Part shown: one piece after another, positions 1,464 through 60,703 of the stretch | How positions within the stretch are numbered: position 1 is the stretch's first letter | Layout: every line of letters begins with the position of its first letter | DNA from: Ulva prolifera | Taxonomy: Eukaryota > Chlorophyta > Ulvophyceae > Ulvales > Ulvaceae | Direction of reading: 5' to 3' | Assembly (NCBI GenBank): GCA_023078555.1 | Contig: CM041201.1 | Span: 4,037,713 to 4,101,712, forward strand | DNA: 64,000 nucleotides | Translations under genes and position numbers: made by a program | Notes under the pieces: model-generated | Seen by the model: only the letters and a program-made list of their open reading frames with translations | Database searches by the model: none | What the model was told of the DNA's origin: nothing

Positions 1464-1500
1464 TGCGGTGCTGCCTGCCTCTCCAAATCTTGCCCTTGTA
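1464..1500 (+). repeat. SINE-like 3' core, diverged fragment
   Basis: This is a short match to the family core (TGCGGTGCTGCCTGCCTCTC, then CCCTTGTA). Only the 3' end is recognisable, so it is either a truncated or an old copy. Confidence 0.4.
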
Positions 1501-1617: not shown

Positions 1618-1714
1618 ATGGTGAGTTTTGTGCGTGGTGTGCGTGGGTGTCTGGGTTTGTACTTGATCTGCTTGCTTCTTTCGCGGTGCTGCCTGCCTCG
1701 CTTGCTTTGTCCTC
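1618..1714 (+). mobile_element. SINE-like element copy
   Basis: A GT-rich 5' part with a GTGGTGTGCGTGGGTGTCTG stretch is followed by the family 3' core, GCGGTGCTGCCTGCCTCGC then TTGCTTTGTCCT. The same core appears at 1464-1500, 5351-5388, 7398-7431, 41355-41392 and on the minus strand at 37092-37151. I found no clear target-site duplication for this copy, so its ends are approximate. Confidence 0.55.
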
Positions 1715-3186: not shown

Positions 3187-3413
3187 TTACAAAGGACAGA
3201 GGCCGGCAGGGCTGGCCGCGCATGAAGCCGGTTCTCGGAAGCCACTCGCGAATCCACTCACTCATTCATGGCACTACGCCAGGCACGAGCTCGCACCACA
3301 GCCTGAATGAATGTAGTTATAAAGGACAGAGGCCAGGCATCGGGCCATTGCTAGGAATCCACTCGCGAATCCACTCACTCGTTCATGGCACTAGGCCGGG
3401 CACGAGCGCACTA
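3187..3413 (-). repeat. Retroelement 3' tail repeats, copy A (two ~105-bp units)
   Basis: Two tandem units begin near 3187 and 3311 on the plus strand. Each starts with ACAAAGGACAGAGGCCGG, continues through a CGAATCCACTCACTC segment and ends with GGCACTA-GCC-GGCACGAG. They lie immediately downstream of the minus-strand retroelement frame, which makes them its 3' tail. The same unit occurs at 4921-5124 and once more at 21262-21372. Confidence 0.85.
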
Positions 3414-4920
3414 CCGCCCTGCCGGAGACTCCAGCCAATAATTGAAGCCCTGCACGGAGCACAATAGCATTCCCTTTGCACAACGCCACACTCAACCGGC
3501 GCAGAGCATTCGTCACAAACAAACCACGATGCACAGCACCACACCGAGACGCAACCTCCGCCAGCCGATTCAAGTGATCCATTGCAGGATGTCCCAAGCG
3601 GCCGTGCGTCTCATGCGACAACGGCACAAAGCTATATGTATCAGGGTCGTACAAACGATAAGCATTGCGTTTCTGCACGTCCCGCGTCACCGCAGCACCC
3701 CCGTCCTCCCGGGCCGCCCGGCCGCAAACGGCATCAGCACAGGGGTTCACAATCGACACATCCCCTATGCACAAGGGGTCACCTGGCGGCATAAACATGA
3801 TGCCCCCCAGCTTCTCTTGGCCCACCGCCCTGAGCACCCGCTCCAGCCCCTCCGCCTGCGCGGCAGCGGCCTGCTCCCCACGCCCCATCGCACCCTGGCC
3901 ACCTTGCACCGCCGCCGCCGCCGGCGCCGCAGCCTGCGCGGCGTCCGGCGCGGGTCGCCCCACATGGGCGCTGTGTCCAGCATCGGCATCGGCGGCCTGA
4001 GCAGTCGTCGGCGCCAGCGCCGCGGCCACACGCGCGGCCGGCGGCGGCGGCAGGGCCGCAGGCATCGGTTCCGCGGGCCAGGTCGCCACGCGCGAAGGCC
4101 CCGCGACCGGGGGGGCGGGCTGGGGTGGGTCAGGGGGGGGCGGGCCCGGCGGGCCAGCGTGGACCTGCCTCAGAGCGTCCGCAAGCCGTGCGCGGACGAA
4201 CGGTGCTGTGCGCCGGATGCGCGTGGACGCCACACATGCGTGGGACCCGATCTCGCGCCATTGTTTTTCAACGATTTTGTGGCGCGAAGCCCAGGTCCCC
4301 GACTGTGTGCAATTCATCGCGCGGTCGAGATCATGCGGCTGTATGAGCGTGCCACATTCGCAGCGTGAGCCGACGGCATCGGGAGGGGCCGGAGACATGT
4401 CCAGGAGATACCTGATGCACAACATGAACTCAACATCGGTCACGCGCAGCGCCTGTGAGAGCGGCAGGATGCTCAACCACAGGGTGGCCGCACGGCAAGC
4501 ACAGTTGCGCAGCCATGCCAAGTTGCATGCACCCTCGAGCGTGGTGATATCATGGCTGGCGAGCAGAGCCCGGCGGCGCAGGGCAACCCTCTTGTTGACA
4601 CGCTGTTGCAAGGCAGGTAACACCTAGGGGCGGCGAGCGGCGACACCATCGCCATGGCTTGCGCAAGCTCGGCGATGGTGTCGCCGCTCGCCGGCCCGGG
4701 CATCCCCGGGCAGAGCTACTCAGCGACGTTGAGGGCCTGCCAGGTTTCCTACAATCGTTGCCCGTGCGGCCCACAGAACGGCTGCATGCGCTAAGGGCCT
4801 CCTGCGAATGCCTTGTGGCTCACCGCAGCTGCAGCGAGGTACGCTCCGTCCGCGACCTCCCGCGGCGTGGACATGATGCCCAGGCCACCGAGGCGCGGCG
4901 GTAGGACGCGTACGGCTGAA
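3391..4920 (-). pseudogene. Non-LTR retrotransposon (restriction-like-endonuclease type), 5'-truncated copy A
   Basis: The minus-strand frame 4623-3391 (410 codons) reads as the C-terminal part of an R2/NeSL-like retrotransposon protein. It contains a Cys/His cluster (CECG, then H and C), a Pro/Ala-rich linker, and a restriction-like endonuclease signature: an IGDVSIVNP strand, a KRNAYRLYD lysine strand and an FVPLSHETHGRLG segment. Further upstream, in other frames, 4990-4800 still reads RLGGLGIMSTP, typical of the end of the reverse-transcriptase region. These pieces are separated by frameshifts, and the polymerase core itself is absent, so the copy is truncated and dead. Tail repeats follow directly at 3413-3187. 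Domain names are from family knowledge; the frame breaks and order are seen in the sequence. Confidence 0.85.
4631..4693. repeat. Near-perfect 63-bp palindrome inside the retroelement
   Basis: 4631-4653 and 4671-4693 are perfect 23-base inverted repeats. The spacer contains a second palindrome, GCTTGCGCAAGC (4657-4668), so nearly the whole segment can fold into one hairpin. On the minus strand it falls between the reverse-transcriptase-end frame and the 410-codon frame. Confidence 0.93.
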
Positions 4921-5124
4921 TGAATGGATGTAGTTACAAAGGACAGAGGCCGGGCATCGAGCCATCGCCAGGTATTCACACGCATATCCACTCACGCAGT
5001 CATGGCACTAGGCCGGGCCATGAATGGATGTAGTTACAAAGGACAGAGGCCGGGCAGCGAGCCGTCGCCAGGAATACACACGCAAATCCACTCACGTAGT
5101 CATGGCACTAGGCCGGGCACGAGC
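4921..5124 (-). repeat. Retroelement 3' tail repeats, copy B (two ~100-bp units)
   Basis: Two tandem units start at about 4921 and 5022 (both with GAATGGATGTAGTTACAAAG) and end in GGCACTAGGCCGGGC. Read on the minus strand they follow the copy B coding fragment at 5289-5125 and directly precede the truncated 5' end of copy A. Confidence 0.85.
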
Positions 5125-5289
5125 ACGTACCACAGCTCGGCCGGTGATGCCAGCCAAAGATTGAAGCCCCGCACGGAGCACAAGAGCAGTCCCCTTGCAC
5201 AACGCCACACTCAACCGGCGCAGAGCATTCGTCACAAACAAAGCACGGTTCACCGTGCCACACCGAGACGCAACCACACCGAGACGCAA
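5092..5289 (-). pseudogene. Retrotransposon C-terminal fragment, copy B
   Basis: The frame 5289-5092 repeats the last ~50 codons of the copy A protein with substitutions (LFVTNALRRLSVALCKG is shared, and the following residues differ slightly). It is a separate, more 5'-truncated insertion of the same family in the same orientation, and runs into its own tail repeats. Confidence 0.85.
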
Positions 5290-5299
5290 TGAATGGATG

Positions 5300-5390
5300 T
5301 ATGCATGGTTACGTGTGTGGGGTTCCTGTTTGTGTCTTGCGCGCGGAGTCTGCGGTGCTACCTGCCTCTCCGGCTTGGTCCTTGCAACAC
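5300..5390 (+). mobile_element. SINE-like element copy
   Basis: A GT-rich leader (ACGTGTGTGGGGTTCCTG) is followed by the family 3' core TGCGGTGCTACCTGCCTC and TGGTCCTTGCAACAC. It sits immediately beside the retroelement fragment of copy B. No duplication of flanking bases was found, so the ends are approximate. Confidence 0.55.
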
Positions 5391-6578
5391 TGAAAGCTTA
5401 ACCGTGTGACGAGGTCTCGAGTCGCGAGGTCACGCGCGTACTTTACAAAACAAGCATGAAAGCATATATGCATGTTCAGCGGAACCTTACTCATGGCATG
5501 TACGTGTATGTATGCATGCTGAATGATTCGCCTGGACTACCAGTTGTATTCAGTAGCAGCTTCCTGCTAGGCCGCCTGCATGCTTGCACCGCGTGCGACG
5601 CCACGAGCGTGTGCCGCGATATGCATCAAGACTTCCAGCTGCACCGAGAGCCTGACAGCCCTGCATGTGCCCAGGCGAAATGGCAACTGTATGTCAGCTG
5701 TGAAGATAGAGCACAGCAGCCAGTCAAGTAAAGTAAATCAGTTGATCGACTTGGCCATATCCGTGCAGCACAGTCAGTGTACTCCTGGAGATCTCCCAGC
5801 ATATTCTTGGAACGCTTGAGAATCTTTTGTGGAGTGTCCCCATCGTTTTGTGAGCTTGTGCTTCACACCCCAAGACCCACTCAGTGCAACATTTGCATCC
5901 GCAGAGTCAGTGACAACATCCACTGAATCGAAACGTGGCCAATGGCCACTCAAAGGAAATTTACAGTCTTTGTCTTGTCTCTGTCAGAGACTCTGCATCA
6001 TGAGCGGATGGCAACACCGAGAGAGGTATCTGAGGCACAGCTGGATACCTCGCATCGATATTAGTGCATGCACATATCTCTAGATCTCTAGGTCTCTAAA
6101 GATATATATCTGGCACGAGCAGGAAGCACTACACATGGCATGGGAATCTTGGACCACTGGAATATATGTGTAGCTTACCAACTGGAGAGGAATGAGAGAC
6201 TCCGTAGCTACACGTGTAGAAACAGCTGTTTCTTGTAGCACTATAGTATGTATATCCTGGTACAGCATTCTGGTGCCAGAGAACACTGCGGCCCCCACGT
6301 CCAAGTGTCTTATAGTATGTCTTCATGTCTTCATGGGGGGGGGGGGGCTGTGCACCTGTGCGCCACTTGTGGTGCATCACCATCAGAGTGGGCTTGGAGT
6401 GGGCTTGGACCAGGCCAGGCCATAGGTCCTTGCCCAGATCAAAATCATACGTGTGCGTCACAGGACAGCTGCAGCATGCACTGAAGGGTGTCTTGAGATA
6501 GACTGCATGATTCAGTGTGGTATCTCTGTAGTCACCAGTGTACTATGAATACCCATGGTAGACACCAAATGAGTGAGG

Positions 6579-6741
6579 AGTGCGTGCGTGTATGGATGCA
6601 TGTGCGGGTGTGTGCTTGGCGGTCTGCGGATCTGTGTTGCTGCGCTTGTGTGCTTGTGTCGCGTGCGTGGGTGTCTTGGTGTCTTGTTTGCTTCGTCTGC
6701 TTGCTCCTTTTGCCCGCCTAGCTGCCGTTGTCCTTGGAATA
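6579..6741 (+). mobile_element. SINE-like insertion with 15-bp target-site duplication
   Basis: The direct repeat ACCAAATGAGTGAGG occurs at 6564-6578 and again at 6742-6756, bracketing a 163-bp GT-rich segment. The segment shares the CGTGGGTGT-TTGGTGT stretch and a TTGTCCTTG end with the 41-kb copy, although its 3' core is more diverged. The exact flanking duplication is what marks it as an insertion. Confidence 0.75.
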
Positions 6742-6795
6742 ACCAAATGAGTGAGGTGAGCATGTTCTGCTATGTGTTGCCGGACAAGAGATACC

Positions 6796-6852: not shown

Positions 6853-7321
6853 TCCCACACACTTGAAATTGAACGGATGAGATCGGATGAGATCAGATGA
6901 GATCAAGATGAGATCGGATCAGATCTCGGACCGGATGAGATGAATTCGTAGATCTCATCAAAACAGGTTGAACCTCGGCGGCCTCATGCAAGGGCCCCCC
7001 ATTAAAGCTTTATAAAGGGCGGTCTTGGCTCATCACATTGTCAAGTCATGCCTTTGCTGCATGGCAGGATTCAATGTCGTCACGTACATGTTGCCAGGCC
7101 CCCAGGCCCCGGGCTCACTGCAGGGCTGTCACAATTTGGGATATGACACGTATCCGCATGTCATGTCCCGACATGCAGTCCGGACATGCAGTCCGTGGTA
7201 CACAGCACACAGCACACAGCACACAGCACGGGGGATGGGTATGTAAAGTAAAGTAAATCCCTTTTTACTGAGCCGGACATCGACAACTCCAAATTAACGG
7301 GACCACATATGTACATATGCC

Positions 7322-7431
7322 GATGTATGTTGGTCTGTGTTGCATGGTTGGTGGTTGAGTGGGTATGTGGTTCCCCTGTCAACACAAATCTGTGGCCTGC
7401 GGTGCTACCGGCCTCTGGCTTTGTCCTTGTA
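7322..7431 (+). mobile_element. SINE-like element copy
   Basis: A GT-rich leader is followed by the core GCGGTGCTACCGGCCTC and TTTGTCCTTGTAACA at 7398-7431. Assignment to the family is by the core; the 5' boundary is a guess and no flanking duplication is visible. Confidence 0.55.
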
Positions 7432-7726
7432 ACATAGCACGGCGGTGCCGCAGCATGGGGGCCACTCCGATGCAGTCGGTCGCCCGGATCCTCGAGGGCC
7501 AGGGTGCACGTGCAGCATAGGCTCAACACCGTACACACCACCCACAAGAATGCAAAGCGAATCGGGTTTCGACACCTGCCATCACGCCTCGCCGGGACGG
7601 GCGATGGCCTCTGCACCCCAGGCAGGGGCGCCCTTCGATCGGCCAGCGGCCACCTCTTCGAACGGCAGCCACCGCACATGTGCCGCAACAGCAATCCTCA
7701 GCGGGAATGCGTGGGCGGCGCGGGGG

Positions 7727-7727
<1 letters not shown>

Positions 7728-7761
<34 letters not shown>
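7728..7761. repeat. Run of 34 G
   Basis: There are 34 consecutive G residues, preceded by a shorter G run. No gene overlaps it. Confidence 0.95.
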
Positions 7762-7762
<1 letters not shown>

Positions 7763-7998
7763 CGTCAGGGCACTGTGATCGCGCACGAGGGGGCTGCGGC
7801 CAAGAAATAAAAACCCCCGGCATCGGCCACAAGCGCCACAGGTCCCGCGGCATCCCCACACACTCACGCTGCTGCGCCGCCACGATGTTGCAACCAGGTG
7901 GAAACAGTCACTGCGGACGCTGCGAACGCCGGCCGCGACCACGGATCCGTGCGTGTGAAACGATGGCAGGCCTCGTGCACGCTGCCCTCCTGTACATG

Positions 7999-8017
7999 CC
8001 CCCCCCCCCCCCCCCCC
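7999..8017. repeat. Run of 19 C
   Basis: Nineteen consecutive C residues, about 240 bases after the G run at 7728-7761, so that the two could pair in single-stranded DNA. Confidence 0.95.
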
Positions 8018-9607
8018 TCTCCCCCCTGCACCACCGCACATGGGAGCGAATCTGTCCGACCATCTCGCCCGCTGTTTGTGACTGGCCGATGGATGGGCGC
8101 TGGCGCAGCAACCTGCCTCTACGTGGGCGACATCGGGGTGCACGTGCACAACCCACAGCGTGCGCCGTCTGCTGAGGATCTGCAGGGCAGCAACACGCAT
8201 GAGCTCCATGCACACATGCACGTGTGCTCTGTGAGGCTGTGCGTCCTGTACGCAGGACGTACGCTGAGGCACGAGCTGGCATATAATTGAGTCGACAAGC
8301 AAGCAAGCAAGCAAGCAGGCAGGCGGGCTGCGAGCAGCGGCAAGGGGGCCTGGCCCATCGGGGCGCTGCATTCCGCCGCCCCTACCCCGCCGCGGCGGCA
8401 GCAACCCTCTGCTGCAGCAGGCCGCTGCCCCGGAGTGCCTCAGTCTGATTGCGGTGCATGCCAGCTTGCCCACGCGGGCCGGGCCGCCTGGGGTGCGTAC
8501 ACCGTACGGCCGTCTGCGGCATCCTCATGCATGTGACTTATCAGGTGATGGCCCGGGCCATGCGCAGTGTAAGGCCTGATAAGCATACGGCTGAACCAAT
8601 CGAAGGTTCAACAGTTTCATGTGCTTTCCTTCAATATACACCACCTGCGAGGCGCACGCGGTGCCGTAACTGTGCCGCCAGCCACGTGCGCATGCGCTTC
8701 ATCGGTTTGATATGGCTGCTCCTTCTGCGGGATCCATGGACCCCCTTGTGCATGTGTGGTGTGCATGCCCGTGTCTGTTGTAATGCAGCTTACACACACA
8801 CGCGGGCTTCTTTTGCGGAGGAAGGCTTGCTAAACCGAATGGCAGAGCAACGCAGTTGTTGTTGCCACGGTTTGTGGTGGTATGAGGCTGCATGCTACTG
8901 ACATCTCCATTTAGGGGCGGGATTCGCTGTGTCACGTCCGTCCTGCATCCAAGAAAGGCCTACTAGTAGCTGCAGGGTCTGGAAGCCGGAAATTCAAACT
9001 TTTTGTTGATTTCCAGCGATGATTGGATGGGTGTGCACCTAGTGGACTCTACGGGGAAGTGTCACATGTTTGCACACTTGATGAACTGGGCGCAAATTCA
9101 GCCCTGAGCCGAGCAGAGCGTGTCCCCATTGGTATATTAATCATTATGTGTAATAAAGTGTTACTGGTTTTTATAAAGTGTTCTTGCTCAGGAGCAGCAT
9201 CGGCACAGCAGCGGTATACTGACCCTGTTTTTCTGTCCGCGTGTTGGAGTCTCTTGCAGCATGTCGTGGTCGACGTTCACGGAGTCCTAAAGAAAGCCAC
9301 GATCTGGTGCAGGACCAGCACTGCGGGTGTTTGCGCGCACACCCGCAGTGTGGCCTCTTGCTGGGCATTGTGGCCTCTAGTGCCGACGCGTCCGTGGATC
9401 TTGCGTTTCCTTTACCTGGATGTTGTCCACGCCTGCGCGCATGTGACGTCGCAGGACGCATCCTGTTGAACGATGTTGACAATGTACTGCGACGGGCGTG
9501 GCCGTGATCGATATGCAAGTCTCTTGAGGTGACACAACCGCAGCATCGGACTGAAGCGGCTAGAGAGCGCAGATCGTTGGGTCTATTTGCATCCCCTGAC
9601 ATCCAGC

Positions 9608-12356: not shown

Positions 12357-14939
12357 GAGGTGCCTCACCTGCAGCTCGCACTAGCAGAAAAAGGCGCACG
12401 CCCAGTCTCTCGCCCAGATCTCAGCATACCAGCAATCAGTGCCTGGTTTGATCGCTTCTTTGATCCACTCCAGCCCCCGCCTCCAGCATCGTGCCTCACA
12501 ACTCCAGATGAACCTCCACATGCGTATCCTGCGCTCCCTGCTGTCACACCTCCTCGATTCGCAGATCCTGAGGCTGTTGATCAAGGCATTCGCCGCCAGC
12601 GCTTCACCCCACAAACCAGAACCCTTGATCTCAGACCCCCAGACCCCGACTCACAGCCCAGGCATCCCGTGCAATCTGCCCCTCGCCCAAGCCTCCTTCA
12701 AATGTTCCATCACGGCAGGCGGGACGCAGCTTGTGAAGGCGCCTGGCCCTGCCCTGCATCCACGAAGTCAGCTGCGTTTCCTGCCCTGATGTGCACGTCC
12801 ACGCCCGCTGACCCCGTCGATGCCTCGATTCCCTCCAGCCACGGCACCGCCAAGGCACTCGCCAGTCGCCACAACCCGCACAGCAAGCTTCCTGGGCCTA
12901 ACGTGCGAGCTCCCCTGTTGTCAGCGGAGCTGCGCAACACATCTGAACCAGCAGGCACAGGTGCATGTGGTGGAGTTCACCACACCGGCCACAACTCTAT
13001 GCTCGACCAGGAATGCCCGTGGCCTGCCCAGGCCACACTGCAGCCGTACTCGGACCATCTCCTGCAGCAAGGTGACCCCACGGCCGGTGGCAGTGGCGCT
13101 GCTATTGCTCGCACCAGGCGGCGCGCGCCCCGCGTCCGCGCGCCGCGGCTGCCGTACGTCCTCGCATGCATGAACGTCGACGACGTCGCCATGCAGCGGA
13201 TATTTGCCGACTCGGGCGGCCCCCGCGCGGAGGACGGGGACCTGACCCAGGCGCTGCAGGAGCTGCGTGAGACGGCATCCGGTCGGGTGGAGGGTCTGCT
13301 GGGGCTCGTGCAGGCGGGCGCGAAGCGTGGGGGCGACCTCAAGCGCATCCTCACGGTCTCGGCAAAGCCGATGTGCGAGCGCGAGGTGCGGCCACCTGTA
13401 GCGCCGCGTGCGTAGCACATGCGGGCCGCCTGCCGCGATCGCTGTGCAATACCGGGCATGCACTCGCGTGTCCACAACTGTGCCAGTGTGACAAGGAAAT
13501 GGGTATTACCCCACCTGACAGTATTCCGCTGCGTGACCGTACGCAGCGTCGCCGCTGATGTGCCGACCCGCCATAGACAAACAGAGGTGCCCCTGTGCAG
13601 GTTCTCGAGGCGGCGGCAATGAAGCAGGGCATCATGCGCCGTGCCGAGAGGTCGCGGCGCCTCTCGCGCGCCATGAAGGTGCCGGCAGGAGAGGCCGGCG
13701 CGGCCCTCCTGCACTCCAAGAGCGTCGCCGGTGCCTTGTCGAAAGGCGGCCGCAGGAGAATGGACCGCAGCGGGTATGCCCCCACACGGCTGCGTGTTGC
13801 CAGCCTTGGTTGCTCAGCCGCCCACCCGCCAGGGCTCCAATGGCCCCTTGTCTAGCGTTGGCAGATAGCGTTGCCAGTGTGGTGCGCATGCATGTCACAT
13901 CCATGCACATCATGCATGGAGTCACTCAACTCGCCCCCATTGCCCCACGGTATGCTCGAAACCTCCGCGCTGTTGTCCGCCCTGCCTGCAGTCTATACGC
14001 CTGCGCTGCAATGCGCCAGCCACACCTGTGCAGAGAGCTAGGTAAGCAGCTCGAGCGGGGCACGCCGACGCCGGCCGTGTGGCTGACGCGGCACGGCGAC
14101 CAGCGCGTGCCCGTGCTGCTCACGGTCCCCCGCAACGACATGCCCTTCCGCATTCCGCCCGCTGTGCTCGACGCGATGCGCGCGGACCTAGCGCTGCCGC
14201 AGCTTGTGCCGCGCGCCGCGCCAGACGCGGCGCAGGAGTCTCCGCGCACGGCGGACGCCGCGGGGGCGGCCGCCGCAGTCCCCGGCCCGCGGCCGCGCCG
14301 CACGCTGAGCATGCGCTCGACACGGTCCGGCATCGGAGGCCTCGGGACGAAGCAGTCGTCTGTGCGTTCGACCCGGTCGGCGGGGAGCCAGGGTGACGCT
14401 TTCCCAAACGATGCCTGAGGTGACGCACAGCCACTCACTGGAGGCGGGAGTGGCTGCGTACGGCGGTCGGAGGTGGGCGCATATCCAGGCAAGCGCGGAG
14501 GCTATGACGGGGTCTACGCTTCGGATGAAGGTGCTGGCAGCATGGCGGTGTTGGGAGGGGGCATGCGCGATGCCTGGGACGACTTCGCAGCTGCATGTCG
14601 GCAGATGAGGCGGTCGCGGGGCAGGCACACGGTTCTGCAGCGGCGGCTTGTCGAGGGCCTGCACGAGGCCGGTGGGTTCGCGAAGCATGCGGGACCGGGT
14701 GGTATGGGTAGGCTGCAGATGACACAGATGAAGGGTGGTCAGCTTTGGGTGCTGATGTCATGGTGTGCTGCTGGAGAGCCCCTCACACGCCTCAGACCCG
14801 GGCAAGGCTGCTCAGGCAGACACTTCTGCCTTTGCTGGACCTCGATTCGAGAACAAGCATGCAGGATCCGTCCAGCCCGCTACTACACATGGTCCTGGAT
14901 ATTGCAGTCGTCAATGTGCCTGCGGACTTGGCTATGTAA
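12357..14939 (+). CDS. Unrecognised protein, five exons seen, N-terminus unresolved
   Basis: Exons 12357-13385, 13601-13773, 14034-14392, 14489-14748 and 14820-14939 all join in phase. Donors are GTGCGG, GTATGC, GTGACG and GTGCTG, and every acceptor ends in CAG. The frame ends at TAA 14937-14939. The first seen exon opens after a CATATACAG acceptor, so at least one upstream exon is missing. The protein begins Pro/Ser-rich and low-complexity. It then has a charged helical block (NVDDVAMQRIFADSG, then LKRILTVSAKP), a basic block (MRRAERSRRLSRAMK), a strand-rich part (QRVPVLLTVPRNDMPFRIPP) and an Ala/Pro linker with SMRSTRSGIGG, which looks like repeated phospho-sites. I recognise no family. The last intron would be only 71 bases. 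Part of this gene is duplicated and decayed at 16640-17125. Confidence 0.6.
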
Positions 14940-16330
14940 CCATGCACGCATACGTACAGAGAAATATGGCACCGGGCTTGAAGGAAAGCGCACGTCGACG
15001 GATCCACATGGGGCTTTTTCATAGCAAACGATCTGTGCACTCAGCTTTCTTGGGGACCGTGTAGTCAAAGCGGACTCGCAAGCAATGAGGACCCGAGCTG
15101 TGACTATACGCTGATAAGTGCTGTGTCAGCATCGCAGCTTGCCAACACACCCAGGGGGGTAGGCGAGACCAGACTGCATACAAGACAGCCGAAGCAAGCT
15201 AATCCTGGACCCACCTTACATTGACAGAGCCCTCAGGCTCAGCCCTGACAACGTTCTCTTGCATCTCTCCATCAACGCACTGCTCAAAAGAAAACATTCT
15301 GATGTTCAGAACTTTTCTGGCTCTCTTGTGGTGTCAGATGCATGCCCTTGCTTCACATGTCACACCGTCGGTCCGACAGCTGCAATGCTTTTCGCTGCCT
15401 CCGCGCGTCCGATCCGGTCTGCAGAGTTGGGACTAATGCGCTGATATGATGTACCCTCTGGACCTAATCGACCCACTACGTGGGCTCCAAGAACATACGA
15501 CGTCGGCCTGGCCTCGTTGCCCCGACTTGAACGAGCGTCTATGCCTGTGCGCCGAGGCGGCATGCAATGTGGACAGACGATGACGGTCTTTGGTGCCGTC
15601 GGAAGTGAGCGCTTCTATGCAGCCTCGCGATTGATTCATTGCGTGCTGGCTGGATGACACGCTGCGCACTACGCAGGTGCAACGCACGTGCTCCACGAAG
15701 TCTCGACGCAACCTAGGTCTGGTTTTTGTTCAGATGTTCTCTGCTGTGACTCCGCACCGCTGATTGGCACGCTGGTCTCTCTGCACCGACTGTCAGGACG
15801 CATTGCGCTGAGCTGATGCCGTGTTTGCAATTGCTTTCTTGGCAAGATGTGTGCAACGATATGTCGGCAAGTATGCGAACTGTTGTCCCAATCATGATGG
15901 CAGAGTTTCACCTCCTTGGGTGAGCTGGGTTCTCAGCTGTGATGAATGGCATAACAGCGTTGTATGGCAACTGATGCGGCACGATGAATAGCCAGCATCA
16001 TCTGCCTTTAACAGCATAGCCTCAAAAAGTGACGAACTATGCACTTAAGTTGTGGTTGCATCCCATAGGTAGCTCAAGTATGCTTGTGTCAGCCATCTGC
16101 GCGATGCTGACCTTCTCAGCCAGGCACCGTAACTGGGTAGATGAATATGCAAACAGTCGCCGAGCCTTCTCAAAGCATACCCCAGCACAAAACGGTCGTG
16201 CTGGCCCTGATGCCGGGGTCTTCTATTGCCTTGCTGGTGGTGGCATCCACTTGTATATTCAGCAGTAAGCTGTGCTTCCCATGCCCGACGCTGAGATGGA
16301 GCATTGCGAGTGTTGAACACTGCAACATTT
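14940..16330. other. Gene-free stretch
   Basis: The base composition is more even than in the exons, and only short scattered frames on both strands occur. I see no domain, repeat or RNA gene here. Confidence 0.5.
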
Positions 16331-16346
16331 GCTGTGTGTACAGTTA

Positions 16347-16500
16347 ATGATGGCTTCATCAGAGCTGGAGGCGTTCATTCAAGGGTGTGAGAACCTGCCA
16401 CCAGGCACTGTGGATAGGTTGCACGAGAAGACGTACACCAATGTGGCTATGGTGCAAGCTGCGACGAGGGAGGAGTTGCAGGCTGCTCTGGGGCAAGGTC
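16347..16500 (+). CDS. Small helical (SAM-like?) exon of unknown gene
   Basis: After a TACAG and two ATGs (16347, 16350), the frame reads SELEAFIQGC, then LPPGTVDRLHEKTY, then MVQAATREELQAAL. The spacing of hydrophobic residues resembles a SAM-domain-like helix bundle. Unlike neighbouring noise it has balanced codon use and a coherent hydrophobic pattern. The open frame runs on to about 16553, but the part after 16500 looks unstructured. It may be a single exon of a gene otherwise lost. The resemblance is an inference only. Confidence 0.35.
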
Positions 16501-16639
16501 CAGGAGGCCTGCTTCACCAGCACTGTCACCCAAGCTCATGTGCGCATCGGTAACAACGTGTTTGAATGCGTAGCTGACAGTATTACACTACATTAGAGAG
16601 AGGCTTGACCGGCGGGCTTGCCAAGTCAGGTGCCACCGG

Positions 16640-17125
16640 ATTCCCTGCATGCCGCTGTGTGTTGACACACGCTGAGCATGCGCTCAACACTGCCCGGCAA
16701 CGGAGTGGGACGAAGCTGCAGTGTGTGCGTTCGACCCGGTCGGCTGGGAGCCAGGCGACTCTTTCCCAAACGAGGCCTCAGGTGGCGCACAACTACTCAC
16801 TGGAGGCGGAAGTGGGTGCTTGGTGTCCGCTGCAATCGCAGTCGGGCGCATGTCCAGGCAAGCGTAGAGGCTACAACGGGGGCTACACTTCGTACAGAGC
16901 TGGGCTGGCAGCATGGCGGTCCTGAGAGACGTGCGGTGTGAGGGCCGAGGTTGCGGCTGTATATTGGCAAATGGGGCGGTCGCGGGCAGGCACACGAGCC
17001 TGTCACTACGGTAGTGACGGCTTGTAGAGGGCCTGTACGAGGCAGATGGGTGTGCGAAGCATGAGCAACCAGGTGGCATGGGTAGGCTGCAGATGAGGGG
17101 TGGTCAGCATTGGGTGCTGATGTGA
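16640..17125 (+). pseudogene. Decayed partial duplicate of the 12.4-14.9 kb gene
   Basis: This stretch follows 14270-14770 in the same order: ACGCTGAGCATGCGCTC, the CGTTCGACCCGGTCGG segment, CACTCACTGGAGGCGG-like intron bases, the CCAGGCAAGCG acceptor region, GCTGGCAGCATGGCGGT, and finally GGTAGGCTGCAGATGA. It contains many substitutions, small insertions and deletions, and in-frame stops, so the reading frame of the source exons is destroyed. The source intron is retained, which points to DNA-level duplication rather than retroposition. It begins about 1.7 kb downstream of the source gene's stop, in the same orientation. Confidence 0.85.
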
Positions 17126-17419
17126 TGTGATGTGAAGCTTCCCCAACGATCGGGGTGCCGGCAGCGTGGCCATGGTGTACAGCGACCGTGCAGTACATCA
17201 GACAAGTATCCATTGCGCGTGTTGCAGCGCATACCGCTGGCACACGGCCACTGATCAGCCGTGCATGCATGAGTCTCCACAAGCAACGAGAGCAAGCTGC
17301 ACTGCAATAGACTGTCTGCGGCCAGCATGCTCATGCTGAGCCCCACACAGTCGCGCCAACCCAGTTGGACCCCACACTGTGCAGCACACCCCCCCCCTCA
17401 CGGTGGTCTTACCCGGCCG

Positions 17420-20600: not shown

Positions 20601-23600
20601 GCAGCAAGCACGCTGGGCTGATTCGCCAGGCACCTCTGGGGCATCAGCACTCCCGCCTTTGACCTCTGCTGCATGCATGCGTTTGGGAGGGTGGTCAAGG
20701 GTCGGCCGACACAGCTCGGGCCGCGGGACAGACCTTCAGGTAGTCCCCGGGCCGCGCCTCCGCCTCCGCGATCTCCTGCTCGAGCGCCGGCACGCTCTTG
20801 CTGTTGTGCGCAAGCGCAGCCTGCATCTGGTCGTGAGCGGGATCGGCGTAGAGCCGGCCGCCGTGCCGGTCCTTCAGGGGCTTCACGGCCCCCCGCCGCT
20901 GCTCCTCCTGCCACGCCGCGCGCAGCTCGGCCGCGCGCTGCCGCTTTTGCCTCAGCAGCGCGCAGCGGTTGCCGTGGTCGAATGACGCGAGGTGCTTGAC
21001 TGCCGCGCCGTGCTGCCGGTCCGCAAAGTGCGCGAGCCGGAAGTGAACCCTGCACCCGCAGCTGCTGGGGCCCACATTGCTGTGCGCTGTGCTGTGCTGT
21101 GGAAGCGCGCTGCGCGGGCTTTGACCGCACGTGCTGGCTCAACCCGGGTGGTCCGGTGGTTGCGGACCGCACTGTCGGGACAGGCACGGCTGTGGGCGCT
21201 CGGCTCCCACTTGCATGCCATCACACACAGCACCATGTCATGCGCAACAGTGTCTGGGGTGTATGTATGTATTCACAACGGACAGAGGCCGGGCATGCAA
21301 GCGGTTCTCGGAATGCACTCGCAGACCCACGCACGCACTCATGGCACTAGGCCGGGCACGCACCACAGCCCTACCGGCGATACCTACCTGTGATAATGGG
21401 TGTGGTCAAAGGTGTGCCACGAGCGCAGCATGCCCATCGCTTGCTGGCCTGCCACTAAGACGCCGACACGCATGACCCACCCACAACATGCATGCGCTGC
21501 CAGCGCAGGACTGGTTTCTCCCAACCCCGGAACGCGGCTAAGTCAGCATCCCCGCAAGGCACAGCGGTTCCAGCGAGTGCTCGTTGCATGGGGCGTTATG
21601 GACCACAAGCAGCGCACCTGCCGGCCAGTGTCCGCGCGGCGCGTTGCGGTGGCGCCGCCGCCTCGCTCCTCACCAGCTCCACAGCACGCTGCAGGCTCTC
21701 CACGACCGCCCGCGAGGGCTTGTTGCGCAGATGCATGCTCCACTTGCCTGCCAGCGCAACAATGCCCGCCGCCCGCTCCGCATCCCCTGCACCGACCGCC
21801 ACGCATGCTCGCAGGTACCCGGCCCCACCGATGCAGCGCCAGCTCGACGTGCATGTACCCTGTGTTGCGCTGCGAACGCTCGGGCGGAAGGCACGGCAGC
21901 GGCAGCAGGCGGGAAGCGCTCTCGCAGATGCATCCAGCTGTGCAGCTCTGAGAGGCATGGCATGCGTGGCAGCGGCCCCATGTGACCGCAGAGGAGAGTC
22001 TCAGCCAATCATGCACCTCTTGACGCTGACTCTGCATCATCTGGGGCAGCCGGAGAGGGGTGTGACAGGCATGCGCGGTGCAGGTACAGTCTGAGGCAGT
22101 GCCTGCCCAGAAACAGACACAGATCGCAGCCTTGTGTGATCTCAATACACTGATTTCCGTCGCAGCTTGAAAACTTGTTCGTTGTGAATTGGTAACCCGC
22201 AGACATGTGCTGCACAGGTGTCATCAAGGACAAGCGGCCGCACCCGCCGCCACACAATCGAGGTCGCCCTGCAGCTCCTCCACCAGCTTCACAGCCAGCT
22301 GCTGCCGCCCGGAGGCCCACAGCAGCTTCGCCTCCTCTAGCCGCCACGCCGCGACCGCCGCCGTGTGCGGCGACCCGTCCGCCCCCGGCTCCTCTACCGC
22401 CGCCACAGCCCCCAGCAGCGCATGCAGCTCTAGGTGGTGGTGCATCGCGGCCGCGAGGCAGCCGCCCTTGCGGAGCGCCGCCGCCTGCGCGGCCGCCGCG
22501 GCGGTGAGGGTGGCTACGGGGGCGCCGATGGCGCGGAGGAGGGAGGTGTGGAGATCGTGCATGCCGCTGCCGTGGCGTGGGTGCTGCTTGATGAAGTCGG
22601 ATGCTAGCAGGCTCTCCCACGTGCGCACAACCACCTGCACTGTTGCACAGGTTGCGGCATGGCATGCACACGGGGGGAGGTAGCCAGCACATACATGACT
22701 GATGAGGTAGTACAGGAACACCAAGCGTACTGTCCAGGGCCGACTCCGCACTAGCATGCATGAGCGTAGTCGCGGCCGCCACTGACACACCAACCACAAT
22801 CAAATGTGACAGCGATGTGTTGTGATCATGCATGAGCTTTCAGTCTCGCTTGCGGCGAGCGCATAGCTTGGCGGTATGCAGTTGATCAGAGCAGCTAGAG
22901 CAGAGCAGAGTGTGCTCTGATCCATCATCAATAGCAATCATGCATCGGTGAACAGCCGATGGCCTGTACGAATGCCGAGACAGCCTTGATGCAGCACCGG
23001 GCGGCAGGCCACGGGCGCAGGGGAGCTCATACCTGCGACTGCGCTGCGGCTTCAGAGCCTTCTGGAAGCTTCTGCAGCTGGCTAATTGTGGCGATGGTGG
23101 CCTCGGTCGCCTGGAGCTTCACCTGCAGGCCGTGTAGCTCTGCGACGTCCCCTAAGCCACCACGGCGTGTGGCCGCAACGACGGCGGCCTGCCCACGGAG
23201 AGCCGCCTGCAGCGCCGCCGTCAGCGCGCCTGCCGCCACTGCGGTCAGCGCATCATGCATGGCGCTGTTGGACCCCCCTGAGCGGCTGCTTCTGGTACCC
23301 TGCATGAGCCAGGCACAGAGGTCTGAGTGGCCATGGGGACGTCATGTGACGGTGACAGTTTCAGCATCACAATGGTCCCACCCCACACCAAATCCCCTGG
23401 TGGCCCCAGGCAGCTCACTGCACCCACTGCAGCCGCAGCTGTGGTAAGTTGTGGCGCGAGTTGCGCAGCGCAACAGCAGGAGCAAAGAGGGAGACAACCA
23501 GCAGTGGGTGAACACTGCGAAAGCCTCTTTCACCAGTCCACGACAGCAAGCGTACCGCTGGGTGGTCCCAAGCGCCTACGGCGCTTGCCGCCGCTGCGGC

Positions 23601-35600: not shown

Positions 35601-38600
35601 TGTCCGCACGACCGGCCTGTGACACGGCGGCCTCGGCCAGTGCGGCCATGCGTGCGCATGGCAGGGCTGCCGCGAGCACCTGTGGCCACAACTCCGGCAC
35701 ACGGTGCGATTGACCGCCTGCCCCGTCCAATGACCTGCATGCATGTGCACCTATGCCTTCTGCCAAAAGCATGTCCCCTAGCTCCTAGTATGCCCCCCCT
35801 CATCAACTCCGTAGAACCCTATCTAGTGTTGTATACGGCACCCTGCGGCAGCTCCCGACGGGACAGAGTGAAGAGGCGGATTTCACCGTTCACAGCAGAT
35901 CATATGCCATGACAACAACGGTGCGTGCCCAATGGACAGCAGCACTGTGCGCCAAAGAAGCACACCGATTCGGCAGGGGCACCCCCCAACCCACCCGTGC
36001 TGCGCCCTCCAGCACAAGCAGCCCCCATGCCGCAGCGCCCCACGGCAGCCCCTCCCCTCCTCCGGTCTCCGCCTCCCTGCCCCCTCGCTGGCGCTTCACC
36101 ACCGCCGCAACGGCGTCGCACGCCGCGGTCACGATCTGCGCCACCTCGGCCACGTCGAGCGCGTGCGGCAGCTCCCACAGGAGGTACCCCGCTGCTGCGA
36201 GCCACGCTGCCTGCTGTGCATCGGGCTCACGCATGCTGGCGCAGAAGGTCTCCAGAATCGGGTCCCCTGAGGCTGCTCCAACCTCAGCACCTGGAATTGC
36301 CCCATGCGTTTGACCATGTCCAGCCAGTATGCCACGCCAGCGTCTCATGCTGGTCGCGTGCAAAGACTCAACATGTACAAAACGACACTCCAGTGCGGCT
36401 GACCCGTCAGATTAGAGGCAGAGCGGCGTGCAGGCAACTATAGGGGGAAGGTAGAACTGTCCAGGCTGCTCTGGAGAATCATGCTATGAATCAGGTGCCA
36501 GTGATGGGGCTGCTGGCTTCAGGCAACAAGGCATCTCTGCACTGCAAGCAAACTTACGCATGCTCTCCACGTTGCACCTGTCAGGAAGGGCAGTTAGTCA
36601 ACAAGGCCTCACCTGCGGCTCCAGAGGGGGGTGGCGCGGAGGCGGGCGAGCGGCCGTAGCGGCGGCGGTGGCGGAGCACATGCATGGCCACCAGGCGCAC
36701 GGCGAGGGCCTGCGCGTGGCTGAGGGGCCCCGGCGGCGCGTGCGCGTGCACCAGCGAGCCCCACGGCGGCTCCGGAGGGTGCCGCAGCAGCCGCACCTCG
36801 GCACGCACCAGCGCCCACAGCTCCTGCATGCCGCGCCTCATGCATGCTCAGCGCGCCAATCACGACCACGTGCTCATGGCCGGCGGATCTGCGCGGTGCA
36901 GCCGTGCTGTGCGCCCGCGAACGAGCAGCTGCGGTGCTGCGCAAGCCACGGCGCTCTGAAGCGGCATGCTGCGCGCGGCCTGCTGCGCGGTCACCTCCGC
37001 ATCGCGGCCCGTGGCGGTCCTCCAGCGGATGCCCGCCATGCCGCGCGCAGCTGCGCGACAGCACGCACGAGGCCACAGGGGGCAGCTGTGTTACAAGCAC
37101 AAAGTCACGAGCGAGGCAGGTAGTACCACCGCAGGAACCACGCACACCACAGGGGCAGCTGTGTGGCCGCGCGGGCAGTAGACCTAATGTGAGGCGCACC
37201 TGGAAGAGGCGGCGGCGGCGCACGGCGTCTAGGCGGAGGGCTGCCAGGGCCGTCTGTGCACACGCGAGCCGAGCCTGCACTGCCAGCTGCGACTCCACCC
37301 CCGCCAGCGCCTCCCCCCACAGCAGCCGCACAAACGGCGCCGCGGCCTGGTACACCTGCACGACCCCGATCACCTAGATGCGCCGTACATAGCAGTTGCG
37401 AGGTATGCAGCGGAAGTGAGCAATGTTGGGCAACTGCAGCTCATGCTTCAGCAACACAGGCATTCATCCATACTTGCCGGCTGGAATTCAATTCATGAAA
37501 TGCATGAAACTGATTTGTATTTGAACAAGTGGCTGAGTCGACACAGAGCAACAGCCGCAATGAGTGCGGCCGACCATGGCTGCATGGAACACTTGCTAGG
37601 GAGACCAGGTGTGGATTCTTGCAGAGGTTGGCGGCAGGGGAAGGGGAGCACCATATGCACGCTGGCGTAGACCTGCACACCGTGCTGCAAAAAGAAACTC
37701 GAGAGCGCGGTGACGGCGGCGTGCGCCAATGCATGCTGGCCATGCATGCCCGCAAGGGCGGGGAAGAGCTCCGCGAACCACTCGAGCAGCTGCTGCGCGG
37801 CCGTGTGCGGCAGCGTGGCCGGCACAGCGCGCAGCAGCGCCTCCAGCCGCTGTAGCACCTTGGTGATCTCGGACGTGGTGGAGACGCTGCGAGACGCTCC
37901 CGCGAACTGTGTGCTGACCTGGCCGTCGGCGACCGCGGTGGCTAGCAGCACCTTTGCCTCAAGACACAGCATGCGTATCAACTCGGCAAAGTCTGCGGCT
38001 GAGCAGAGGGGGGGCAGGTAGGGGGAAGCGAGCATGGAGGACAGGGCACGCGAGTACGCCTCTCCAACTTCGGATGCCAGGCCGAATTCAGACATGCGGG
38101 AGACGGTGTGGGCGAACATGCGGCCGGCGACCCGCGTGGCGGCGGTGGGAGGGCGGTTGGGGCGGGTGGCGGAAGCAGCGACAGCTCGGAAGAGTTTGAC
38201 CAGGTTGGCATCTGGGCCCTTCTTGGATTTAACAACCTCGGTCTCAGCACAGGTGATGACTGCCCGTATGAGGCCCGGCCAGGAGATCCCTGCGAAAGAT
38301 ATGGCGTCCGTGGGTCGATTCGTGTGGCCTGGTGTTGCATGTGATCCAAAGAATGGTGTGTGTTTATGCACTGTGGTGAGGCGGTCTTGCACACATACAC
38401 AGGAGGGCTTGTGGTCCACGGCACAGCGCCAGCGAAGCTTACAGGAATTTATTAACCCATGGAGACTAGCTTTGTGGCCAGCTACGGCGACGGGGTAGGC
38501 GGCATACATGGAGCGGAGGGGTCCCCTTCGTTGCTGGCATATCGGATGGACTTCCCGGGAGACACAGTCCGGCGATCTAGGTACCGCTGCAGTGGCTCCG

Positions 38601-39243: not shown

Positions 39244-41191
39244 ATTCGGCACATCTGCGGCATTCTCACAGCTCACCCGAGCACACCACTGTGGCATTTG
39301 AGACCAGACAGCTCTGATTCCATGGCATGTTAGTGTGCATAGATTAGAGACCATGACCACCGTTTTCAGGCCTCAGCCTCAACAAAATGAGGCCGTGGTG
39401 TTAGCCTGTGTCTCTGCTGGCGCCCTAAATCGCAGCTCTGTGACATTCACACAGCCACAGGGCATGATTCAATTGCATTGCAGGTGTTGAAAATTCCGGT
39501 GCTGTTGCCTTTCCTTACAGTGAAACCAGTGGAAACCTGCTCAGACATAGCGTGCGTGTCACACATGCACTGCGGATGCCTGCAATCTCATTGCTGAGGC
39601 ATTTTGCCGCTCTGCGACCATGGTGTAGTGACGATCGGATGCCAACTCTAATTCAGGTGAATGCTGTGTGAGCCTACGTGCGTGTGCAGTGAAGCGGACA
39701 AACAGCCATGCATGCATTGGTTCTGCCCTGGTGCTGCCTTTGATGCGGGGCTGTTGGAAACAGCGTGCTGCCTTGTTCTTCCGCAATCAGTGCAACGACT
39801 CCCGTAACACCGCGACGATGCGATCCGTTGCAACACAGAAACACAAAGTGCAAGCTAGCATGCGGGCCGATGCTGCTGCAGGCAGTAGGCTCCAGGGCAC
39901 ACATCGCTTGTATGGCAGCTGTGGTGGTGGCCCATTTGGCATCACTGCAAGATGACATGATGTGTCCCTGATGTACATCACGGTAGCTATCAGTTGTGTT
40001 ATCGGGTACGAAGCGGCTGCAGCATCATTCGCATCTGCCTTGAACGGCTGGCTGCGATGGCGTCACTGTCACAAATGCTATGCTTTATGCAGGTCAGACG
40101 CGCAGTCTTAGTACAGGTCAGGTCAGGACAGCCAGCGTTCCATACCTGCTGCGAACGGAGGTAGAACCGAGGAACGCTCAAGGGGAGATGCTGGTACCGT
40201 GAAACAGTAGAGAGCATGGTCACAGATATGTGGTCCCGTTGCCTCGGAGTTGTCAATGTCCAATAGGATACGGCTCAGTAAATTCAGATGTACTTTACTT
40301 TACTTTACAGATCACTGTGTGCACACTAATATATGCACACTGAACAGCCAAGATTACGGCGGGAGATCCGTCACAGGATCTCCCTCACTACTCCGGGACA
40401 ATCCCGCTGGCGGCTTACCCCTGCACTCGATCCGCAGACTGATCGTGCATGGATGCACCTGTCACCACACTGCTGCCTGCAGGCTCATGCATTGTGACAC
40501 CGCCCCCTCCCCCTCGTCCTCGCCCCTGCAGTCAGTGTCATCCCTGCCATGCACACGGTGGCGGCTGCGCTTGCGGCGGTGCAACACATTGTGGTGAAGC
40601 GCCCGGATCCATCTCGAGCTGGGCTCAAGATCTTCGACATATGCAAGCTTAACTAGTGCACAGCCCAAGAGATTAACATTTGCATGCATGCATTCCTCGG
40701 TGCCTCGCACAGTACCCTCTGTACTGCTTGTTTGTTGCAAGGGCTGTATCGGGTCACACCGAAAGATCTGCACAGAAAGAAGGCACCGCCACGCCACCCT
40801 GACCCTGGACACGCCAACATGTCGCTCCCCGACTGTCTGCAACAGTCTGGCCGAGACGCAGTGGCGCATACAACTGCCGCACCACGCGGGTTCATGCAGT
40901 AGTGCAGCTCGCTAGCTCTCTGAGATGTGCCTACTTGTCACGACAACCACCCCCTCCCTACCCATGCATGGGCAGGTAGCTCAAGCCTGGTAGGCCGCAG
41001 CATCCACAACACATGCATCATGACGGCACCCAGGGCTCCCTTCAGGGGTTCCCATCATATACTTCGGGGGCGCGTCTGCATGCAATCACGCCCTCGAACT
41101 ACGGCAGGACCATGGCATGCATATGCACCAGGCATGCCATCACGTTTACGCGTGTGCATCCGTCACACAAGACAGCCATATGCGCTCTCCT

Positions 41192-41392
41192 TGCTGTTGG
41201 GCGGGGTTCGGGTGGGGATGGGCGTGTGGGCATGGGCGTGTGTGTGGTTGTGTTGCCGTGTCGCTGTGTCCGGCGCGGGTGCTGCCGTTGCGTGGGTGTT
41301 TTGGTGTGCGCTTTGTGTGGCTTGCTGCGTGGTGTGCGTTTCCCCTGATTCTTGCTTGCGGTGCTACCTGCCTCGCTTGCTTTGTCCTTGTA
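41192..41392 (+). mobile_element. SINE-like insertion with perfect 27-bp target-site duplication
   Basis: The 27-base sequence at 41165-41191 (begins ACACAAGACAGCC, ends CGCTCTCCT) is repeated without mismatch at 41393-41419. Between them lie 201 bases: a GT-rich 5' two-thirds (GGGCGTGTGGGCATGGGCG, GTGTGTGGTTGTGTTGCCG) and the family core GCGGTGCTACCTGCCTCGC with TTTGTCCTTGTA. The long duplication, absence of terminal inverted repeats and fixed 3' end fit target-primed reverse transcription of a non-autonomous element. I see no clear pol III A/B boxes by eye. Confidence 0.85.
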
Positions 41393-42403
41393 ACACAAGA
41401 CAGCCATATGCGCTCTCCTGAGGTTCTTGGCTTTGGCCCATGGGTGCTCAGCATGGCCACGTAAAGGAAAATACAATTGTTTGTGATTAGGCCAATCAGC
41501 CATATCATTTACAAGCCCTCCGCAGGTGCGGATGCCGCGACAACAGGCCGGGGAGGGAAATCACATGGACATCGACAGATCTGGCCCCTGCCAGACCACC
41601 ATGTGCACTGCACTGGCACACGCGGGGGCTCCTGCTGTGCTGAGCGAGGGCGCACAGCACAGGAGGTGCGGCGCGCCGGGCGAACTCATGATCGGGCGCA
41701 TGATCGTTTGCCAGAAGGATCCTCGAGGGGTTTTGCTGCTGCTTATACATATAACGTACGAACAGGATGCTGTCTTCAGCAGCTGCGTTAGGCAATCAAA
41801 ATCGCCTACATCTCCTGAGCTCTTGACCGTCCCGCGCTGCAGCAAATTCGCAGGAGATTTTCAAATGGGGCTCAGCGCCCGCGTGGGAGGGGCCTGCGTC
41901 GGTTGCAATTGTGGCCGGTACCTGGGCAGGTACTCCTTGGGGTCAGCATTGCTGTTCTGCGATGCAATGGCCCAAGCCGATGCCCCTGTAGGTAAGGCGC
42001 GTTGAGCTGATTCGAGTTATTACGCTTTATGTCCATGTCAGCTTCAGGCCGGCTGTCCTTGGTGTGAGGGCGTTCTCAAAATCTCGATGTCCCGGCATAG
42101 CGCATCAGAAGCACGCAAAGCCATCAGCGTGGAGAGGTCGAACTCGAACATTCGAAGCGCCCCAGCTGGGCGAACTTGATGGGCCCCGAATCGCGTTCAA
42201 TGTTATGGTTGCAAAGAGCGAGGAAACATGACAACAATAGTGCGTCGGAAACGTTCACGTGAAATTAGTGCTCGGCGCTCGCCTACGTAGCGCAAGTAAG
42301 CCTTTCAACATAGGGCAATTGCGCCAGCCCGGGTTGACAGGCTGAAGAGCTGCTGGAGCCCAGCAGTATGTAGATTTTGTTTTATTGTTGCTGAATATCT
42401 CTT

Positions 42404-53850: not shown

Positions 53851-60703
<6,853 letters not shown>

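Follow-up and report, generated by a model that had tools for sequence, protein, structure and literature searches.

The GT-rich element of 201 nt that lies between two copies of a 27-bp direct repeat at 41.2 kb in the window very probably derives from a LINE (non-LTR retrotransposon) as a 5'-truncated copy that was dead on arrival. It corresponds to the final 201 nt of the 3' UTR, GT-rich and 558 nt long, of a family for which we coined the label LINE-A. The initial annotation had taken it for a member of a SINE family. That label was wrong because the element is the LINE's own 3' end, as became apparent from the comparison with resident LINEs that the same annotation had suggested. Target-primed reverse transcription, also proposed there, is well supported as the ordinary mechanism, given the long duplications, fixed 3' end and variable 5' truncation of an interspersed family. 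The window is the whole 64-kb stretch of DNA analysed (contig C6:4037713-4101712), and the genome searched comprises 88.9 Mb in 44 contigs.

LINE copies in the window

The window contains fragments of LINE-A, of a second family labelled LINE-B in this analysis, and of a more distant relative associated with CATA repeats (CATA-type).

41165..41191, plus strand: left target-site duplication, 27 bp, starting with ACACA, perfect direct repeat
41192..41392, plus strand: LINE-A copy by sequence match, 5'-truncated, 201 nt, GT-rich, ending in CTTTGTCCTTGTAA
41393..41419, plus strand: right target-site duplication, 27 bp, perfect direct repeat
6579..6741, plus strand: LINE-B copy, 5'-truncated, with a 15-bp duplication (6564-6578 / 6742-6756)
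1618..1714, plus strand: degenerate LINE-B tail, 83% identity over 1638-1713
7322..7432, plus strand: third-type tail with the core ..GCGGTGCTACCGGCC..CTTTGTCCTTGTAA; 7395-7432 matches the LINE-A tail (86-88%)
5300..5390, plus strand: degenerate tail of the same kind as that at 7322..7432, 86% identical to the LINE-A tail over 5351-5387
37079..37164, minus strand: short truncated tail (37092-37151) with a 13-bp duplication (37164-37152 / 37091-37079)
1464..1500, plus strand: degenerate core and tail, doubtful, without a match in the sequence comparison with the LINEs
3187..5295, minus strand: head-to-tail cluster of four 5'-truncated CATA-type LINE copies, by sequence match to the relative
21275..21384, minus strand: CATA-type LINE tail, 79% identity

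The 41.2-kb copy is 97.6% identical to positions 5229-5433 of LINE-A (5,433 in total), and the terminal A of its CTTTGTCCTTGTAA also belongs to the duplication. The three duplications initially reported, of 27, 15 and 13 bp, were all recovered. Among the four further copies listed at the time, those near 1.7, 5.3 and 7.4 kb hold up as matches to LINE tails (83-88%), while the one at 1464-1500 is in doubt. A possible duplication of 11 bp with one mismatch (7221-7231 / 7432-7442) accompanies the 7322-7432 copy and is weak (score 7); a search for duplications around those at 5.3, 1.7 and 1.5 kb gave none that was convincing (best scores 5-7). Both shared motifs exceed their expectation in the window: TTTGTCCTTGTAA, at up to two mismatches, occurs 6 times against 0.43 expected, and GCGGTGCTACCTGCC, at up to three mismatches, 12 times against 5.2, these counts being reached in none of 100 shuffles in either case.

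Several other features of the window were recorded. It carries chlorophyll a/b-binding protein genes (38 matches to PF00504), which, taken with the size of the genome, mark the host as a photosynthetic eukaryote, probably a green alga. At 14301-17127 lies a pair of diverged direct repeats, spaced by about 2,365 bp and with piecewise similarity of 74-92%; a 92-bp tandem duplication (99% identical) occupies 1-184, and at 7718-8040 a long G run faces a C run about 240 nt away. Both GC skew (0.18) and AT skew (-0.21) are strong at 58000-60000, where a minus-strand ORF consists of simple repeats.

Full-length LINE-A and its truncation products

Three 5'-complete copies of LINE-A sharing the same 5' starting sequence were found in stretches of about 10 kb read around copies (loci L044, L045 and L051). 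The element is 5,433 nt long (L044:4021-9453) and consists of 267 nt, a single open frame of 1,535 codons (1,490 aa from the first ATG) and the 3' UTR, which ends in CTTTGTCCTTGTAA without poly(A). L044 is flanked by a 21-bp target-site duplication and L051 by one of 17 bp; L045 sits in a CACACG repeat, where a duplication is unreadable. The insertion junction is not always exact, since L044 carries two bases between TGTAA and its duplication.

The family is abundant. The 14-mer CTTTGTCCTTGTAA occurs exactly 1,519 times in the genome (770 + 749), whereas its reversed-letter control is absent. A search with positions 41190-41393 (204 nt), in which the best 40 of 999 candidates were scored, returned at least 42 matches, and 40 of the 42 listed were 97-100% identical over nearly the whole query. 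Thirty copies with 98-100% identity to this query have a single 3' end and, 202 to 1,704 nt away from it, 30 distinct 5' limits (two of the copies, L007 and L021, run off the stretch examined). The 41.2-kb copy lacks a 5' end proper: 28 of the 29 others reach further upstream, each to a different point. Upstream of the last 560 nt or so, the longer copies carry the reading frame. The 5' end of LINE-A (20-mer, up to two mismatches) was found 4 times in the genome and its 3' tail (30-mer, up to one mismatch) 476 times, an imbalance of more than a hundredfold between two patterns of unequal length and mismatch tolerance.

That short copies are far commoner than 5'-complete ones would also be expected of a genuine SINE family, with a separate promoter head and a 3' tail borrowed from a resident LINE, and parts of PMC3747384 describe Chlamydomonas SINEX/RandI and L1 pairs, short and long retroelements that share a 3' end as is the case here. 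We nevertheless consider a SINE very improbable. No common 5' end exists among the 30 copies whose 5' limits were read, and the 201-nt body is LINE 3' UTR that in longer copies runs into an ORF, namely the 1,535-codon reverse transcriptase (RT) frame, hence the family is neither non-coding nor non-autonomous throughout. The tRNA-related head and pol III boxes that had been suggested for inspection did not materialize: no tRNA or Rfam match was obtained within the window, and the B-box pattern occurs there at chance frequency (12 against 11 expected) and never inside the element. Unlike in the Chlamydomonas SINEX pairs, the short copies are truncated LINEs, with no separate head found.

Whether duplication-bracketed copies derive from these LINEs was assessed by coverage, defined as identity of at least 75% over at least 85% of the copy length, with tandem clusters left out. 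At this strict setting, 20 of 25 bracketed copies longer than 60 nt match LINE-A or LINE-B, compared with 7 of 125 shuffles; 22 of 30 pass when all copies of at least 50 nt are included. Of the copies that fail, L108 (114 nt) and L110 (59 nt), at least, carry tails resembling the third type at 7.4 kb in the window. A looser version was discarded and only the strict one used, since the former was largely driven by composition, with shuffled GT-rich bodies passing in 47 of 75 cases.

Target site and mode of insertion

Tails with the LINE-A end are preferentially followed by the tetranucleotide CACA. Genome-wide, it comes directly after 1,126 of the 1,519 exact tails (581 + 545), while CACA starts at only 0.9% of window positions, both strands considered. 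Flanks were read on contig C1 in 60 stretches picked by list order (the tail of L044 being skipped), which contain 69 tails and were not selected by body similarity; the 14-mer served to find these stretches, so that its conservation there is ascertained rather than measured. The four bases after the 69 tails are C in 66, A in 64, C in 63 and A in 60, and further bases show no strong preference. Six CA units follow only 29 of the 1,519 tails, hence the preference is for CACA itself. Specificity for (CA)n microsatellites was accordingly ruled out for most copies.

Duplications scoring at least 9 bracket 42 of the 69 sampled tails, against 1 of 69 when downstream flanks were swapped between loci; not all tails are independent, as 9 of the 42 positives fall in three tandem clusters (L088, L068 and L076) and the pairs L070/L072 and L052/L054 share a downstream flank. 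The remaining 27 tails have no duplication at this threshold; as only about 650 nt upstream were read, some copies that are old or longer may have been overlooked there. Duplications measure 9-34 nt (38 rows, L088 left out) and copies 14 nt (tandem clusters) to 588 nt.

These data also bear on two further explanations. Copies that are short, numerous and placed between direct repeats could be MITEs or other derivatives of cut-and-paste DNA transposons, an origin we regard as extremely improbable given that duplication length varies over the range just cited, that copy length is graded with one end fixed, and that the sequence is continuous with a reverse-transcriptase gene. The least probable explanation of all, to the point of being negligible, is chance likeness among unrelated GT-rich, low-complexity repeats: such bodies do align readily even when shuffled, but long copies from different contigs mostly share 98-99% identity, and both the tail count against its reversed control and the duplication count against swapped flanks refute it.

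Truncated LINE copies remain the preferred reading, and their insertion could proceed as follows. The element protein would nick the strand reading TGTG, and the freed 3' end would prime reverse transcription of the element RNA from its TGTAA end. The TGTG primer may pair with CACA that the RNA would have retained, at its 3' end, from the source site. Reverse transcription would usually stop early, leading to 5' truncation, and staggered cleavage of the second strand would generate the long target-site duplication. TGTAA is a green-algal polyadenylation signal, and at the end of the element may double as such. RNAalifold detected no conserved 3' hairpin, or any structure, on 48 distinct tails. 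Since a copy inserted beside CACA still has CACA at its flank, the site is reusable; the small tandem arrays at L088 and L113 fit with such reuse.

Micro-arrays of LINE tails with steps of 23-78 nt were observed at L088 (C1:1803672-1804550; step of 39 bp), L068, L076 and L113 (step of 78 nt), apparently the outcome of tandem amplification at a single site or of several insertions there. Nested antisense self-targeting, in which GT-rich 3' UTRs would serve as targets, was considered and dropped: of the 30 LINE-A copies, 5 have antisense and none sense neighbours within 150 nt (3 and 3 in the far control), and in the C1 sample the numbers are 5 antisense and 6 sense of 33.

The LINE-A protein, its relatives and their significance

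A search of the PDB with a two-sequence profile showed that, by sequence, the RT of LINE-A is R2-like. Its nearest matches are five R2-type sequences (E 2.2e-16 to 5.6e-8), three labelled R2 and two, 8gh6 and 8ibw, labelled 'Reverse transcriptase-like protein', which we take to be R2Bm; LINE-1 ORF2 follows at E 0.0048 or weaker. Against Pfam RVT_1, LINE-A scores 20.8 bits, below the cut-off of 29.6, and the CATA-type relative at L048 scores 42.7 bits, above it. Upstream of the RT, the L044 frame contains two C2H2 patterns (residues 65-85 and 103-125, by pattern match alone). Downstream lie a CCHC-like knuckle (residues 1132-1147), about 200 Pro/Ala-rich residues and a GD-X12-D motif (residues 1386-1400) with GD in place of the usual PD, followed by a KR common to LINE-A and the CATA-type relative. 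The knuckle, CX1CX8HX3C, departs from the CX2-3CX7-8HX4C given for restriction-like-endonuclease LINEs in the relevant part of PMC5678591. Searches of PDB and Pfam with a C-terminal profile returned low-complexity matches alone and no meaningful relative, and a structure model of the 410-aa C-terminal frame of the window was set aside (pLDDT 41). The RT similarity, protein layout and C-terminal motif make it likely that the nuclease of LINE-A is restriction-like, as in the R2 group.

LINE-A resembles the members of that group (R2, HERO, NeSL/Togen and others) in having a single ORF with N-terminal zinc fingers and a central RT, to which its CCHC-like knuckle and putative endonuclease-like end may be added. 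LINE-A differs from them in its Pro/Ala-rich spacer between knuckle and nuclease motif and in its RT catalytic box, which is usually YADD or FADD and is CHDD in LINE-A (L044 residues 792-800; YHDD in the CATA-type frame of L048), with HDD where ADD is usual. It also differs in its target, mainly the tetranucleotide CACA and rarely a long (CA)n run; among fish, Togen families are specific for (TG)n, and microsatellites are the target of some HERO families, according to sections of PMC4640811.

Alternatively, the LINE could be of the APE type (L1, RTE or RTEX), which we judge unlikely, although less so than the other alternatives considered. In its favour, our interpretation of Table 3, the part of PMC3747384 relevant here, is that (CTTGTAA)n or (CA)n terminates the green-algal RTEX elements, and (CATA)n or (CA)n the L1 elements, so that these Repbase clades, compared by description alone, resemble the LINE-A group in ends and flanks. 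Within LINE-A and the L048 relative, no Pfam endonuclease, APE or other, was matched upstream of the RT. RTEX and L1 are clades carrying APE, and LINE-A further departs from the APE type by its single ORF, its N-terminal C2H2-like fingers, its CCHC-like knuckle and GD-X12-D after the RT, and an RT nearest to R2. Copies of mammalian-type L1 have a fixed 3' end, graded 5' truncation and target-site duplications, following the same truncation logic as LINE-A; LINE-A has no poly(A) tail, in contrast, and targets CACA rather than an A/T-rich site.

Tails in the genome sort into several types. The 3' end of LINE-B was located at L112 (C9:2505300-2506700), at the position where a 3' end would be expected for an RT with 79% identity to that of LINE-A; its tail, of the type found at 6579-6741 in the window, ends in CCTTTGTCCTTGTAA followed by CACA. 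Window positions 6584-6739 are 78% identical to this 3' end, and the 6579-6741 copy is thus, on sequence grounds, LINE-B, a second LINE with the terminal motif of LINE-A. The CATA-type relative is 40-42% identical to LINE-A and has many copies, L048 carrying a frame of 1,202 codons. Its 3' end, ..CTCTGTCCTTTGTAA, is similar to the LINE-A tail, and it inserts mostly at CATA repeats: in six elements with seven tails (L048 and L113-L117), the flank begins with CTACATAC in four, CTACATGC in L116 and CTATATAT in L048. CATA-type RT pairs spaced by about 4.1-4.3 kb on the same strand, resembling head-to-tail arrays of full-length elements, were noticed on contigs C1, C2, C3 and C9.

In the window, a 410-aa frame of the CATA-type LINE at 3391-4623 (minus strand) spans the CCHC knuckle and the endonuclease-like end. 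Downstream of two copies of the 3187-5295 cluster stands the same CTACATCCATTCAT; the flank of a third is similar and that of the fourth is not, which suggests that one target site was used repeatedly. A 27-nt inverted repeat (96%) at 4627-4697 lies within a truncated CATA-type copy, near the gap between coding pieces.

A literature search of partial coverage, in which Repbase sequences were not compared, yielded no published description of LINE-A, and within the same bounds our guess is that it represents an undescribed family of a known kind. More tentatively, and at somewhat less than even probability, a single undescribed R2-like clade may have radiated in this one algal genome, keeping a common 3' end, switching targets and scattering more than 1,500 tails. 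The targets would be CACA for LINE-A and LINE-B, and mostly CATA repeats for the 40%-identical relative. Each tail would carry the common end ..TGTCCTT(T)GTAA, which is also a polyadenylation signal, and scattering would have occurred with heavy 5' truncation, some copies being reduced to about 25-60 nt.

The claimed new SINE family gives way to a LINE, for which a single genome shows full-length copies, target and truncation products alike. Its 3' end on TGTAA raises the question of how the RNA ends and is recognized without poly(A). If the nuclease is confirmed to be restriction-like, LINE-A would provide an R2-like enzyme that prefers a target of four bases, and its relatives with shifted targets would constitute a natural series for the study of site choice.
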